Positions 18,890 to 23,950 of a DNA stretch of 64,000 nt are shown here, piece after piece. Position numbers and translations under genes: made by a program. The notes below the pieces were generated by a model. The model was not told the DNA's origin and searched no databases. It saw only the letters and a list, made by a program, of their open reading frames with translations. Origin of the DNA: Gemmatimonadota bacterium (lineage in GTDB: Bacteria > Gemmatimonadota > Gemmatimonadetes > Longimicrobiales > Gaopeijiaceae); contig SHZR01000005.1 in assembly GCA_009692205.1 (NCBI GenBank), forward strand, positions 1 through 64,000, read 5' to 3'. Within the stretch, counting starts at the first letter, position 1. Each line of letters starts with the position of its first letter.

Positions 18890-19873
18890 TTACCAGCGGA
18901 ACGCGTCCGTGAGGCCGACCTCCGGGAGCAGCGCAGGAGCCCAGCCGAGCTCGCGACGGGCGCGCTCGGACGTGAAGGGGTTGCCTCGCGTGAGCATGTC
19001 GAGCGTGCCACGAGCGTGGCGAGCGAGGTCGCTCCGCCCGAGCCCCCGCACGACCCAACCGAGGGCGCAGAAGCCGGCGCGACCCGCACTCGCGGGCACG
19101 TCCGGCGCCCAGATGCGGCGCTCGAGCCCGGCTTCGGCGCATCGCACGAGGTCGGTCACGGTCACGGAGTGATCATTCGTGAGCAGGTAGACGCGCCCGG
19201 CAGCAGCCTCCGTCGTGCCTGCGAGAACGGCTCCTTCGGCCACACTCGACGCATGCACGACCGTGAGCGGGATGCGCCCCCCCGCGATGCGAGGAAAGAA
19301 GCCCCGGGCGAGCACCGGCCCGACCCGAGGGGCGAACTGGCGGTCGCGGCGGCCATACATCACGGGCGGACGCACGATGGCCGCCCAGACCCGGCCGTCC
19401 TCGTGGGCCTGGAGAACGAGCCGCTCCGCCTCCTGCTTGGAGCGCCCGTAGACGTCGTGCTCGGGCAGGACCGGCAGCGGCGCCCACTCGTCGGTCGGCT
19501 CGGGCCGGTAGCGCTCGCCGCCGTACACCGCCGTGCTGCTCACATGCACGAGGCGGGCACCGGCCACCTCCGCGGCGCGGACGACGTGCTCCGTCCCCTC
19601 CACGTTGCCCTGGCGAAACGCCTCCCAGTCCCCGCCCGACCCGATCACGGCGGCGGCGTGGAAGACGACATCGCACCCCGCGGCGGCGCGAACCATCGAG
19701 TCCGCGTCCTCGATGCGCCCCTCCACCACCTCGGCGCCGTTCTCCTCGAGCCACGACCCCGCGGCCTTCGTGCGCGTGAGCGCCCGCACCTTCCAGCCGC
19801 CGACCGCGAGGCGCTCCACGAGGTAGGAGCCCAGCATGCCCGTGGCGCCGGTCACGAGCGCGCGAGGGCTCAT
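18890..19873 (-). CDS. NAD-dependent epimerase/dehydratase (extended SDR)
   Basis: This 327-residue protein has an N-terminal Rossmann motif (LVTGATGMLGSYLVERL), an HAAAVIG strand and the active-site pattern STAVYG followed by YGRSKQEAE (Tyr-x3-Lys), then PPVMYGRRDRQF. This is the extended SDR family that acts on nucleotide sugars or sterol-like substrates; the exact substrate cannot be read. The ATG at 19873 overlaps the stop of the PQQ dehydrogenase gene by four bases (ATGA), so the two are translationally coupled. An Arg-rich extension to 20059 was rejected. Confidence 0.9.
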   Translation of the reverse strand: MSPRALVTGATGMLGSYLVERLAVGGWKVRALTRTKAAGSWLEENGAEVVEGRIEDADSMVRAAAGCDVVFHAAAVIGSGGDWEAFRQGNVEGTEHVVRAAEVAGARLVHVSSTAVYGGERYRPEPTDEWAPLPVLPEHDVYGRSKQEAERLVLQAHEDGRVWAAIVRPPVMYGRRDRQFAPRVGPVLARGFFPRIAGGRIPLTVVHASSVAEGAVLAGTTEAAAGRVYLLTNDHSVTVTDLVRCAEAGLERRIWAPDVPASAGRAGFCALGWVVRGLGRSDLARHARGTLDMLTRGNPFTSERARRELGWAPALLPEVGLTDAFRW

Positions 19874-21861
19874 CGGGCCGCCTCCCTCGCCCCGAGCGCT
19901 TCGGGCGCGGGCAGCGCGAACGCGATCAGGTGGTCCCCAAGGCTCGAGCGGATCCCATCGTGGCCGCCCGCGGCGATCACCACGAACTGCCGCCCGCCCG
20001 GACGCGCCCGATAGGTCAGGGGAGACGCCTGGGCGGACGCGGGCAGCTTCCCGGTCCAAACGACCTCACCGGTGGCCAGGTCGAACGCGCGCAGCCGCCG
20101 ATCCATCGTCGCCGCGATGAAGATCAGCCCGCCGGTCACGAGCGGCCCGCCCATGTTGGGCGAGCCCCACCGCATTGGCGTCGGCACCTTGGTGAGGTCG
20201 GTCAGCCTCCCGAGGGGAACCTCCCATGCGAGCTCGCCCGTCCTCATGTCGACCGCGTGCAGCATGCCCCACGGCGGCGGACTGCACGGAATGCCCAGGG
20301 GCGAAAGCAGCGGCTCGCGGCGCACCGCATACGGGGTGCCCGCCTGGCCGGCGAGCGAGGACTTCCCGTCCGTTGCGGGCGCGGCCGTGTCCGCGACCTC
20401 TCGCGGGATCAGCGTGGCGACCATCGCCACCCTGTTCGTGTTCGTGACGAGCAGTCCGCTGCGTGGGTCGAACGCGACGCCGCCCCACTCCATCCCCCCG
20501 ATGAAGCCAGGGTAGGCGATCGTGCCGCGAATGCTGGGCGGAGCATAGACGCCGTCGGAGCGGAGCGCGTCGATACGGCTGCGACACGCGGCTCGATCGA
20601 ACGGCGTGAGCCCCCAGGCATCCTCCGGACCGAGCCCCTGCGGCGCGAGCGGACGCGGGAGCACCAGCATCGGCTGGGTCGGCGAGACGAGCTCACCAGG
20701 TACATCGCTCGCGGGAACCGGCTGCTCCACGATCGGGAAGAGCGGCTCGCCCGTCTCGCGATGGAAGACGAACAGGTAGCCCATCTTCGTGGCCTGAACC
20801 ACCGCGGGAATGAGCACGCCGTCCCGCTCGAGCTCGATCAACGCCGGGGGGCTAGGGAGGTCGTAGTCCCAGAGATCGTGGTGCACCATCTGGAAGTGCC
20901 AGACCACCTCGCCCGTGGAGGCGCGCAGCGCGACAAGCGAGTTCGCGAACCCGTTGTCGCCGGGCCTGAGACCGCCGAAGTGATCCGGGCTCGGGCTGCC
21001 CGTCGGCACGAACACGAGGTCGCGCTCCGCGTCCGCGGTGATCGTGGCCCACGTGTTCGCGGCGCCCGCCGGAGTCCAATCGCCATCCTGCGCGGCGGCG
21101 CCGACGCCAGGAAGTGGCTCCCACGACCACCGCACGGCACCCGTGCGAGCGTCGAACGCTCGCACCACGCCGCTCGGCGCGTCGGCGAAGTGACTGTCGA
21201 AGATCGAGGAGCCGACCACCACGAGTCTGTTCACAACCGCCGGGGGCGCGGTCTGCGTGTACTGGGCGCGACACCCCTCGATGCGGGCGACGCCCTCTCC
21301 GAGGTCGACACTTCCGCCCCCCGCGAAGTCCGAGCACGGCATCCCCGTGGCCGCGTCCAACGAGAAGAGCCGCCCGTCATACGCCGCCAGGAAGATCCGG
21401 CTCGCGCATTCGTCGGGGGCGGCGCGCTCGGGATCCGTCCAGTGCGACAGCCCCCTCGACGTAACCATCGAGTGGAGCCGGTCGGTCCGGTCGAGTTCAG
21501 GGTCGAACGCCCACAGTGCGGCACCCGTCTCCGCGTCCAACGCGATGGCGCGACTGTAGGGCGTGGACACGTAGAGCACGCCGTCCACCATGATCGGCGT
21601 GGCCTCGAACGCGGTCCCCGCCTTCCCGTCCTCGTGGCCGTGCACATCCCCGGTTCGGTAGGTCCACGCCACCTCCAGGTGACCCACGTTCTCCGGGGTG
21701 ATATCGGCGAGCGGCGAGTAGTGGTTACCGACGACGCCGTCCGCGGTGGGCCATGCGGCGGGCTCGAGGCCGGGAACGAACCGCGGCACGCCTTCTCTCG
21801 AGGCCGCGGTGGCGACCAGTGCGAACACCGCAGCGATCACGAGCCATCCCATGCGAGACAT
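19870..21861 (-). CDS. Secreted PQQ-dependent (quinoprotein) dehydrogenase
   Basis: This 663-residue protein has a signal peptide (LVIAAVFALVATAAS) and an eight-bladed quinoprotein propeller. Typical blade sequences are HYSPLADITPENVGHLEVAW, YVSTPYSRAIALDAETGA, TPAGAANTWATITADAE, DLWDYDLPSPPALIEL and LRAFDLATGEVVWTGKLP. It is close to glucose/sugar-type PQQ dehydrogenases without the N-terminal membrane domain, acting in the periplasm and feeding electrons to quinone or cytochrome c. The substrate is unknown. The coupled epimerase downstream hints at sugar or alcohol oxidation. It is divergent from a propeller/cytochrome-like pair. Confidence 0.92.
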   Translation of the reverse strand: MSRMGWLVIAAVFALVATAASREGVPRFVPGLEPAAWPTADGVVGNHYSPLADITPENVGHLEVAWTYRTGDVHGHEDGKAGTAFEATPIMVDGVLYVSTPYSRAIALDAETGAALWAFDPELDRTDRLHSMVTSRGLSHWTDPERAAPDECASRIFLAAYDGRLFSLDAATGMPCSDFAGGGSVDLGEGVARIEGCRAQYTQTAPPAVVNRLVVVGSSIFDSHFADAPSGVVRAFDARTGAVRWSWEPLPGVGAAAQDGDWTPAGAANTWATITADAERDLVFVPTGSPSPDHFGGLRPGDNGFANSLVALRASTGEVVWHFQMVHHDLWDYDLPSPPALIELERDGVLIPAVVQATKMGYLFVFHRETGEPLFPIVEQPVPASDVPGELVSPTQPMLVLPRPLAPQGLGPEDAWGLTPFDRAACRSRIDALRSDGVYAPPSIRGTIAYPGFIGGMEWGGVAFDPRSGLLVTNTNRVAMVATLIPREVADTAAPATDGKSSLAGQAGTPYAVRREPLLSPLGIPCSPPPWGMLHAVDMRTGELAWEVPLGRLTDLTKVPTPMRWGSPNMGGPLVTGGLIFIAATMDRRLRAFDLATGEVVWTGKLPASAQASPLTYRARPGGRQFVVIAAGGHDGIRSSLGDHLIAFALPAPEALGAREAAR

Positions 21862-21878
21862 CGAGGCCTCCGGAGCGA

Positions 21879-21899
21879 GAAGTCGTTTGGGTCGACTTC
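21879..21899. other. Small inverted repeat in the divergent PQQ/propeller intergenic region
   Basis: GAAGTCG (21879-21885) and CGACTTC (21893-21899) are exact complements separated by seven bases, just upstream of the PQQ dehydrogenase start. It may be an operator. The remaining 180 bases to 22080 show no gene. Confidence 0.3.
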
Positions 21900-22079
21900 A
21901 CGATGCCGCGGCGGGCCCGCGCGCTCCCTCCGTCATGCGGCCGAGATGCCGCCTCGCCGCTAGGTAGGAAGTCCGCCTCGTGACGTAGGTCGAGGGAGTC
22001 GCAGGCCCGCACCACCTGGCATTTTGGGCACGCGGGCGCTAATTCCCACCGCGTTGGAGTCACTCAGCCCCGAGGTGCG

Positions 22080-23108
22080 ATGATGACCAGCGCTAGCCTG
22101 CGCCGACTGCTTGTCCTCGCTGTAGGATTCCTAGTCGTCGCGCCGCCCTTGAGCGCCCAGGCGGGGCGCGTCCGCATCATCCAGACGAACGCCGGCGGCG
22201 ACAACGTCCACCTGATCGACCCGACCACCCAACAGGTCGTCGACGTCATCATGGGGATCCAGATTCCGCACGGGGTCACCGCCGCGCCTGACGGCAGCGA
22301 GCTCTACATCACCAATGAGGTCGACCACACCGTCGACGTGGTGTCGACCGCGACGCTGCGCGTGACGGCCAAGATCCCGCTCTCCGACAACCCGAATAAC
22401 CTGGCGATCACGCCCGACGGCCGAAAACTCTACGTCGCCATCGCCGGGGCTCCGTGGGTCGACGTCATCGACACGCAGCAGCAGCGCCGCCTCACGCGAA
22501 TCCCGATGCTGAGCGGGGTGCACAACACGTACGTGACGCCGGACGGTCTCTTCGCCGTGGCGGGCATGATCGGCGCGCGCACCATGACCGTGATCGACAC
22601 GCAGACCGACATGCCGGTTTGGTCCGTCCACTTCGACGGAGGAGTTCGACCGATCGGGTTCGAGCGAAATCCCGATGGCTCGACCAAGCGAGCGTTCGTG
22701 CAGATCTCCGACTACCACGGATTCTATGTGGTCGACTGGGCCACGCGGAGCATCGTCGAGAGGATCCGAGCGCCCGAGCTACCGCTCTCGCAAGTGAGCA
22801 ACGACGCGCTCCAGGGCTCGCCCTCGCACGGGTTCGCGGTGTCTCCGGACGGAACGCAGCTGTGGACGACCAGCAAGCCGAACAGTCACCTCTACGTGTA
22901 CTCCCTACCCGACCTCCGCCTGCTCGGGGGCGTCGAGGTGGGACACGATCCGGACTGGCTCACCATGACCCCTGACGGACGCTTCGTATACTCGGCCAAC
23001 GCCGGCTCGAACAACGTGTCGGTCATCGACACGCGTGAAATCCGCGAGGTCGCGCGAATTCCGGTGGGCAACGTCCCGAAGCGGAACCACACGGTGGTGA
23101 TCCGATGA
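22080..23108 (+). CDS. YncE-like (YVTN) seven-bladed beta-propeller, secreted
   Basis: This 342-residue protein has a signal peptide ending near PPLSAQA and YVTN/cytochrome-D1-like blades: VVDVIMGIQIPHGVTAAPDG, LYITNEVDHTVDVV, NLAITPDGRKLYVA, WLTMTPDGRFVYSANAGSNN and VSVIDTREIREVARIPVG. Such proteins are periplasmic and may bind redox partners or a metal. The start is one of two adjacent ATG codons (22080 or 22083) after GAGGTG. The stop overlaps the start of the di-haem protein gene by four bases (ATGA), so the two proteins are made together. Confidence 0.88.
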   Translation: MMTSASLRRLLVLAVGFLVVAPPLSAQAGRVRIIQTNAGGDNVHLIDPTTQQVVDVIMGIQIPHGVTAAPDGSELYITNEVDHTVDVVSTATLRVTAKIPLSDNPNNLAITPDGRKLYVAIAGAPWVDVIDTQQQRRLTRIPMLSGVHNTYVTPDGLFAVAGMIGARTMTVIDTQTDMPVWSVHFDGGVRPIGFERNPDGSTKRAFVQISDYHGFYVVDWATRSIVERIRAPELPLSQVSNDALQGSPSHGFAVSPDGTQLWTTSKPNSHLYVYSLPDLRLLGGVEVGHDPDWLTMTPDGRFVYSANAGSNNVSVIDTREIREVARIPVGNVPKRNHTVVIR

Positions 23109-23950
23109 TCGTCCGTCGCCTCGTAGGACTCGCCGCAGGTGCGCTGGTGCTGGCCTCGATTCTTCCTTCGTCGACGGCTGCGCAGGCGCAGCGGCCGCTC
23201 AGCTTCGATCGTTACAAGGATGAAATCGAGGGAATCTTCATCGCACCCAGAGGCGGTCACGGACCGAGCCGCTCCCCGTGCGCGACCTGTCACATCGAGA
23301 GTGGCACGCCGCTCAAGCTGCAGCCGCTCCAGACGCGTCCGGACGGTACCGTGTTTTGGACCGAAGAGCAGTCGCGCCAGAATTTCGAGATCGTTTCGCG
23401 GCTCGTCGTGCCCGGGCAGCCGGAGCGGAGTCGTCTGTTGCTCAAGGCGCTCGCGGTGCAGGCGGGCGGGGCGCCCTTCCACGTGGGGGGCAAGTTCTTC
23501 CAGGGCCAGAATGACTCCGAGTGGCAACGCATGGCCGCATGGGTGCGCGACGCCGCCCCAGACCCCGCCGCCGCGGCCAGGACCCCACCCGCCCTCGACT
23601 TTGAGTTCTTCGAGTCGTGCGTTCAGCAGGTCTTCCAGAGCAAACGCCCGGGACGTATGGAGTGCGTTCACTGCCATGGCGGCGGCGGGAACAACTTCGC
23701 CCGCGAGATCGAAGACGGACGCGCGTACTGGAGCCTCGAGGAGTCACGCCAGAATTTCGAGGTGCTCAGGCGCTACATCGAGCCGGGGTACCCGCTCATG
23801 AGCCGCTTCCTGACGCACCCACTCTCCCCGGAAGCCGGTGGCGATCCCTACCACGGCGGCGGGCGTAGGTGGACGTCGCAGGAAGACCCGGAATGGATGA
23901 TGCTCGCGGCTTGGGTGGGGGGGGAGTCGCCTTCGTGTAGGGTGGGGTAA
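23105..23950 (+). CDS. Di-haem cytochrome-c-like protein with duplicated domain
   Basis: This 281-residue protein has a signal peptide and two CxxCH haem-attachment motifs, CATCH (59-63) and CVHCH (187-191). Each is followed by a matching block: EEQSRQNFEIVSRLVVPGQP with WQRMAAWV in the first half, LEESRQNFEVLRRYIEPGYP with WMMLAAWV in the second. The protein is therefore an internal duplication. It resembles planctomycete-type cytochrome c domains. A role in periplasmic electron transfer, perhaps from the PQQ enzyme encoded next door, is inferred from context. Confidence 0.85.
   Translation: MIVRRLVGLAAGALVLASILPSSTAAQAQRPLSFDRYKDEIEGIFIAPRGGHGPSRSPCATCHIESGTPLKLQPLQTRPDGTVFWTEEQSRQNFEIVSRLVVPGQPERSRLLLKALAVQAGGAPFHVGGKFFQGQNDSEWQRMAAWVRDAAPDPAAAARTPPALDFEFFESCVQQVFQSKRPGRMECVHCHGGGGNNFAREIEDGRAYWSLEESRQNFEVLRRYIEPGYPLMSRFLTHPLSPEAGGDPYHGGGRRWTSQEDPEWMMLAAWVGGESPSCRVG

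Follow-up and report, generated by a model that had tools for sequence, protein, structure and literature searches.

Quinohaemoprotein amine dehydrogenase is composed of a propeller, a di-haem chain and a catalytic chain whose quinone cofactor is crosslinked, and the CuZ centre of NosZ has seven His. The di-haem protein FoxE of Rhodobacter ferrooxidans (PDB 5MAB) is encoded with the propeller protein FoxY, described as an eight-bladed pyrroloquinoline quinone (PQQ) protein, and the axial ligands of FoxE are Met, each supplied from the part of the sequence on the side of the opposite domain (PMC10654088). Thiocyanate dehydrogenase of Thioalkalivibrio is described as passing electrons to a c-type cytochrome, c552 (PMC9456337). 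Here we analyze a window of 64,000 nucleotides, the whole stretch of DNA under study, from a Gemmatimonadota genome of 2.7 Mb (61 contigs, 97.9% complete). Four neighbouring genes of the window form two divergent pairs: a YVTN/YncE-like propeller with a two-CxxCH (predicted di-haem) protein, and a PQQ-type quinoprotein dehydrogenase with an epimerase-type protein. The propeller and the di-haem protein recur together in other Gemmatimonadota genomes, and the pair looks like an undescribed electron-transfer unit of this phylum.

With quinohaemoprotein amine dehydrogenase the pair shares a seven-bladed propeller and a di-haem chain (Foldseek match 1jju_B), but that enzyme has a catalytic chain, whereas no constant third gene stands beside the pair. 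Thiocyanate dehydrogenase is likewise a seven-bladed periplasmic propeller, resembling ours at the level of the fold (Z 33); it differs in its three-copper centre and single-haem cytochrome and is ~18% identical to the propeller. NosZ, including the lactonase-type L-NosZ (NF052460), has seven blades and channel-mouth His, two of which fall on invariant His of the propeller. In contrast to NosZ, the propeller is too short for a CuA domain and has three invariant channel-mouth His, with Asn, Arg and Trp/Leu at the other NosZ His positions; it reached 55.3 bits against L-NosZ (cut-off 700), and 21.8 and 16.5 bits against NosZ (cut-off 625). Hydrazine synthase also places a YVTN propeller (beta) beside a di-haem subunit (gamma), and the propeller matches beta with an E-value of 1.2e-25; no hydrazine synthase family was matched over cut-off. 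FoxY differs as an eight-bladed PQQ protein from the seven-bladed YVTN propeller described here, and the FoxE family oxidises Fe(II), whereas nothing at this locus points to iron oxidation.

The propeller and di-haem protein as a unit

The propeller gene (22080-23108, + strand) encodes 342 residues and exceeded the family cut-offs for TIGR02276 YVTN repeats (98.9 bits, E 1.1e-28) and PF21783 YNCE (39 bits, E 7.8e-10). It overlaps by 4 bases (23105-23108) with the gene for the two-CxxCH protein (23105-23950, + strand, 281 residues), and both proteins are apparently exported, signal peptides of the window proteins being judged by eye. A profile search of the phylum matched the di-haem protein in 42 of 395 genomes, all 42 of which also had a propeller match, and every propeller match above 200 bits fell in a di-haem genome. 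At the level of the order, 34 of 154 genomes had a di-haem match, and the propeller was found in 33 of the same 34. The two genes adjoined in all 33 loci first fetched (two of them as pieces). For gene order and co-divergence, 73 loci were reduced to the 66 with both proteins at the required length, and these to 44 distinct loci; seven loci in which one partner was truncated or absent were left out of the count. The propeller lay upstream on the same strand in 44/44 full-length loci, making the coupled pair of the original prediction a conserved unit, and the distance matrices of the two proteins correlated with r = 0.976 compared with a permuted maximum of 0.25 (1000 permutations). Among the incomplete loci, the di-haem gene of G302 is split over contigs, and the pieces in G140 (on C30 and C123) both reach contig ends. 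A pattern scan of genome contigs, which reaches close relatives only, returned 3 loci, all from Gemmatimonadetes, and the pair was absent from the viral contigs and plasmids searched. Among the open-licence PMC papers listed by searches aimed at such pairs, none was concerned, judging by title and opening of the abstract, with a propeller/di-haem or a propeller/Rieske pair.

The two CxxCH motifs of the window protein lie at residues 59-63 (CATCH) and 187-191 (CVHCH), and two such motifs are present in 44/44 distinct full-length loci. The internal duplication that had been noticed in this protein holds in all 30 members scored: the halves of the window protein align over 121 residues with 36% identity and reach a score of 215 against each other, compared with at most 42 in 200 shuffles, and the corresponding scores in 30 members range from 145 to 271, each above every shuffle (at most 56). 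Both CxxCH motifs, His126, His250 (HxG) and Cys172 are invariant in 30/30 members, and no Met is invariant across them. No Pfam or NCBIfam family was matched over cut-off by the two-CxxCH protein; the best of the weak matches over the 30 members was PF13442 (15/30, E 3.3e-4), and SoxA was matched in 8/30 (E 0.0044).

The only clear sequence relative in the PDB was FoxE, with E-values of 5.2e-5 for the whole profile and 1.6e-7 for a single-domain profile; the next chain was a reaction-centre cytochrome (0.0056). FoxE likewise carries two CxxCH in two related small domains, of which only the second aligns well, with the repeat unit of the di-haem protein (18 of the 30 di-haem proteins were used in one analysis behind this two-domain comparison). 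The alignment sets the MPPG of FoxE at the lHxG of the di-haem family, with the Met one column before the His, so that the axial Met of FoxE and the invariant HxG His of the family differ in kind and by one column. The two predicted haems would be held by CxxCH and the HxG His, perhaps that of the other repeat, which would make them bis-His haems possibly crossed between repeats as in FoxE. The two motifs in 44/44 loci, together with the CcmF found in the host genome, are no more than suggestive of covalent haem.

The di-haem protein of the window shares 71-74% identity with its counterparts in other genera but 39-42% with those of its genus mates (G109-G112), a pattern suggesting that the pair was transferred, or duplicated long ago, as one unit. 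In G022 and G209, a phage-type integrase gene lies directly in place of the 5' part of the propeller (PF00589 in L037, 10804-12594; its relative in L101), and the pair seems to have been broken there by an inserted element.

The channel mouth and a Rieske partner in the sister clade

The predicted model of the propeller has seven blades and a mean predicted local distance difference test (pLDDT) score of 80.6, based on 3 sequences. Six residues are invariant in 26/26 propellers (26 of 27, the truncated L042 being left out), namely H64, H148, H250, R190, W293 and R335 in full-length numbering, corresponding to H36, H120, H222, R162, W265 and R307 in the mature numbering used below. In the model, with the blade register judged by eye, blades 2, 4 and 6 appear to begin their innermost strand with H36, H120 and H222, all in one register; blades 5, 7 and 1 appear to carry R162, W265 and R307 at that position or the next, and all six residues are predicted to sit at the mouth of the channel. 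None of nine other YVTN propellers taken as a control has His at all three positions, and no CxxCH protein was seen in their loci. A profile alignment with NosZ (E 3.8e-6, probability 87%), for which 14 of 15 NosZ loci gave a usable frame and hhalign used 13, pairs NosZ H181 with H120, H343 with H222 and HH132/133 with N78/N79, and sets H410 against L266, the neighbour of W265.

Nine genomes that lack the di-haem protein were also matched by the propeller profile, with scores of 130-197 bits compared with 430-566 bits for full-length paired members. Eight of these genomes hold a group of sister propellers; in seven of the eight a Rieske [2Fe-2S] gene lies directly beside the propeller (L155-L158, L160-L162), and the eighth locus, L159, is cut by a contig end. 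The two genes are separated by gaps of -4 to +5 bases in six loci, and the Rieske gene is upstream in L160. PF00355 was confirmed in the five Rieske proteins scanned (E 1.4e-12 to 4.4e-16) and the other two show the Rieske motif; judged by eye, these proteins have a start resembling a twin-arginine translocation (Tat) signal. The Rieske motif was found in 0/41 di-haem neighbourhoods (649 kb) and in 0/9 of the other YVTN propeller loci (31 kb). In the tree, the di-haem propellers fall on one side of a branch with support of 100/99, and the Rieske set together with the truncated locus is supported at 100/98. Across the outgroup propellers, H120, R162, H222 and W265 are kept in 10/10 and R307 in 9/10; in the eight Rieske-clade propellers H36 is replaced by Asp and N79 by His, and three His remain.

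Given two unrelated carriers, and a polar channel mouth that is conserved across the two clades, the propeller is best explained as a working redox subunit, and it is probably a constant core with an exchangeable electron carrier. Three His, two Arg and one Trp from successive blades would form its site, where the central channel opens; the di-haem protein would act as the dedicated electron carrier of the propeller, and the Rieske protein would fill this role in the sister clade. We infer that the site could take a metal or a small molecule, and the direction in which electrons would flow between propeller and carrier is part of the same proposal. Taken as a whole, the reading that the window holds two independent units, one of them a constant substrate- or metal-binding redox propeller with a di-haem carrier replaced by a Rieske protein in the sister clade, has in our judgement an even chance of being correct. 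A more specific claim, and a doubtful one, is that these propellers are small metallo-propeller oxidoreductases of a new class, in which a channel-mouth site of three His, two Arg and one Trp works with interchangeable dedicated carriers (a bis-His duplicated di-haem cytochrome in one clade, an exported Rieske protein in its sister clade) and acts on a small molecule. YncE-like propellers occur widely, and for most of them no function is known; one subfamily is now tied to a dedicated redox carrier. The sister clades are paired with different types of carrier yet retain most channel-mouth residues, which is a direct reason for regarding these propellers as redox enzymes in the line of NosZ and thiocyanate dehydrogenase.

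Two other roles for the propeller were considered. It may be a non-catalytic docking or assembly partner, comparable to hydrazine synthase beta or an S-layer-type YVTN domain, with the di-haem protein alone shuttling electrons from various dehydrogenases, which is possible although we hold it to be unlikely: a surface-layer YVTN propeller is the closest match in fold, and varied oxidoreductases are encoded beside the pair (a DAO-type flavin adenine dinucleotide (FAD) enzyme, a GSDH in G111 and xanthine-dehydrogenase-type enzymes), but these neighbours are confined to a few genomes or one genus, and the channel-mouth residues are kept even with a Rieske partner. The three invariant His and the exchanged redox partners could also belong to a metallochaperone or metal-sensing pair, in which the propeller binds a metal and the di-haem protein matures or reduces it, rather than to a respiratory enzyme; this is very improbable, since no gene family recurs beyond single lineages over 42 neighbourhoods, in which not every neighbour was identified.

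Several observations weigh against a redox propeller with a dedicated carrier. The closest structure by fold, 1l0q (Z 40.5), is a surface-layer propeller from an archaeon, ahead of NosZ (1qni, 33.7), hydrazine synthase beta (33.5) and thiocyanate dehydrogenase (33.3); WD40 and designed propellers also exceed 30, and the matches to NosZ and thiocyanate dehydrogenase say little because propellers share a fold. Hydrazine synthase beta is itself described as having no known active site, and gamma as cytochrome c peroxidase-like (PMC12758564). Only three channel-mouth positions carry His, compared with seven in NosZ, and the nine other YVTN propellers have His at position 36 in six cases, at 120 in seven and at 222 in one. 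Residues 207-220 of the model, just before H222, have pLDDT below 50, and the predicted model of the di-haem protein (4-sequence alignment) reached 37.6, too low to give a usable fold. The sister relation of the di-haem and Rieske clades has moderate support (83/78) with long branches, and in G056, the ninth genome matched by the profile, two more distantly related propellers lack both carriers in their vicinity. As for the pairing itself, the one order genome without a propeller, G004, is 67% complete and has a di-haem piece only, G008 has two pieces about 7 kb apart, and G088 has a second propeller piece without a di-haem match.

The quinoprotein-epimerase pair and the proposed four-gene path

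The original prediction had placed all four genes on one electron path, from a substrate to PQQ and on to the di-haem protein, with the propeller as partner. The genes themselves were located as it stated. The PQQ-type quinoprotein dehydrogenase gene (19870-21861, - strand, 663 residues; PF01011 E=6e-224) overlaps by 4 bases (19870-19873) with that of an epimerase-type protein dependent on nicotinamide adenine dinucleotide (NAD) (18890-19873, - strand; PF01370 3.9e-33), which falls mostly outside the span originally given, and a divergent intergenic region of 218 bases (21862-22079, no strand) separates the two gene pairs. Genes beside these four are putatively labelled PP2C and DedA.

A lack of co-occurrence outside this genome had been named as what would refute the original prediction: the four-gene set did not recur in the genomes searched, whereas each of the two pairs did. 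Seven further orthologues of the PQQ gene with more than 60% identity were found (G089, G111, G091, G093, G094, G085 and G043), and the epimerase adjoins the PQQ gene in 7/7 of them, compared with 0/3 at 51-55% identity; the proposed quinoprotein-epimerase coupling is thus a conserved unit. The orthologue lies on another contig than the propeller pair in five of these genomes (G089, G111, G091, G093 and G094), and the remaining two (G085 and G043) have no di-haem match. Neither a propeller nor a di-haem gene was present in the stretches fetched around the seven orthologues, and none of the other genomes examined showed the junction at 21862-22079. With the two pairs standing apart in all seven genomes, the single four-gene electron path is not supported, and the four-gene unit was rejected. 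In G089, an MscS-like gene and the next gene directly flank the propeller pair; in the window, the PQQ and epimerase genes lie in between.

Quinoproteins were also considered, and rejected, as a general neighbour of the pair. Using a profile built from the quinoproteins collected during this work, and with several flanks reaching contig ends, we counted 3 quinoprotein genes within 3 kb of the pair, compared with 1.48 expected (26 loci; P=0.19), which is no clear excess. Within 9 kb there were 7 (in 6 loci) compared with 3.28 expected (P about 0.05, worked by hand), a borderline excess and at most a loose tendency, which counts against the independence of the pair from quinoproteins.

That electrons pass from a substrate through the PQQ dehydrogenase to the di-haem protein, with the propeller as helper and all four genes in one system, is quite unlikely, even though the count within 9 kb raises its probability slightly. 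The divergent adjacency in the window would fit such a path, as would the 7 quinoprotein genes within 9 kb (3.3 expected) and another PF01011 gene that divergently adjoins the pair in G110 and lies 2 kb away in G111, but the nearby quinoproteins of G110 and G111 share only 29-30% identity with that of the window, and the closer range of 3 kb shows no clear excess. The closest relative known for the di-haem domain, FoxE, is encoded alongside the PQQ protein FoxY (PMC10654088); set against this, the four-gene set was not met again, the PQQ orthologues being on other contigs in five genomes or without the pair in two, and pqqC and pqqE were not found in the host. Most simply, the window PQQ gene is a chance neighbour of the propeller pair, which would work independently of the PQQ enzyme. 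Gene neighbours can mislead in quinoprotein-rich genomes.

The number of quinoproteins is indeed large: at E<=1e-40, PF01011 had 19 matches in the host and 5 to 37 per genome across the 20 searched, a count that covered 20 of the order's 34 di-haem genomes and may give lower bounds where there were more than 39 candidates. The window PQQ protein scored 678 bits against TIGR03074 (PQQ glucose-dehydrogenase-type quinoproteins), below the cut-off of 832.65, and the match starts at profile position 164; the protein appears TIGR03074-like without the membrane part. Alignment with 1yiq shows that it has the WDY Asp and the Lys of quinoproteins. The supply of the cofactor is less clear. Of the 59 genomes searched for pqqC, 2 contained it, and neither the host nor any of its four genus mates was among them; PqqE gave nothing over cut-off in the host but two weak matches, all 14 control genomes matching likewise; both absences are limited by draft genomes, which may miss genes. 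With pqqC in 2/59 genomes and none in the host, the PQQ content of the dehydrogenase is uncertain, and quinoproteins of the host lineage may need PQQ from outside or be without cofactor.

Other neighbours of the pair

No third constant neighbour was found in 42 neighbourhoods of varying length, in which genes were called with a crude GC-based gene picker that performed poorly in L035. A conserved third partner, sought also among the genes immediately downstream of the pair, was accordingly rejected, the candidates being limited to lineages (the DAO-type FAD enzyme in genus g85 and the GSDH in G111), and the neighbouring genes do not indicate a substrate of the propeller. In genus g85, a DAO-type FAD oxidoreductase gene begins -4 to 0 bases after the stop of the di-haem gene in 8 loci (L099-L101, L103-L105, L107 and L110), with PF01266 tested on one member of the cluster. 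Genes for xanthine-dehydrogenase-type molybdoenzymes lie beside or near the pair in G089, G110 and G140 (L034, L112, L046 and L044), assigned by Pfam in L034 and by clustering in the others.

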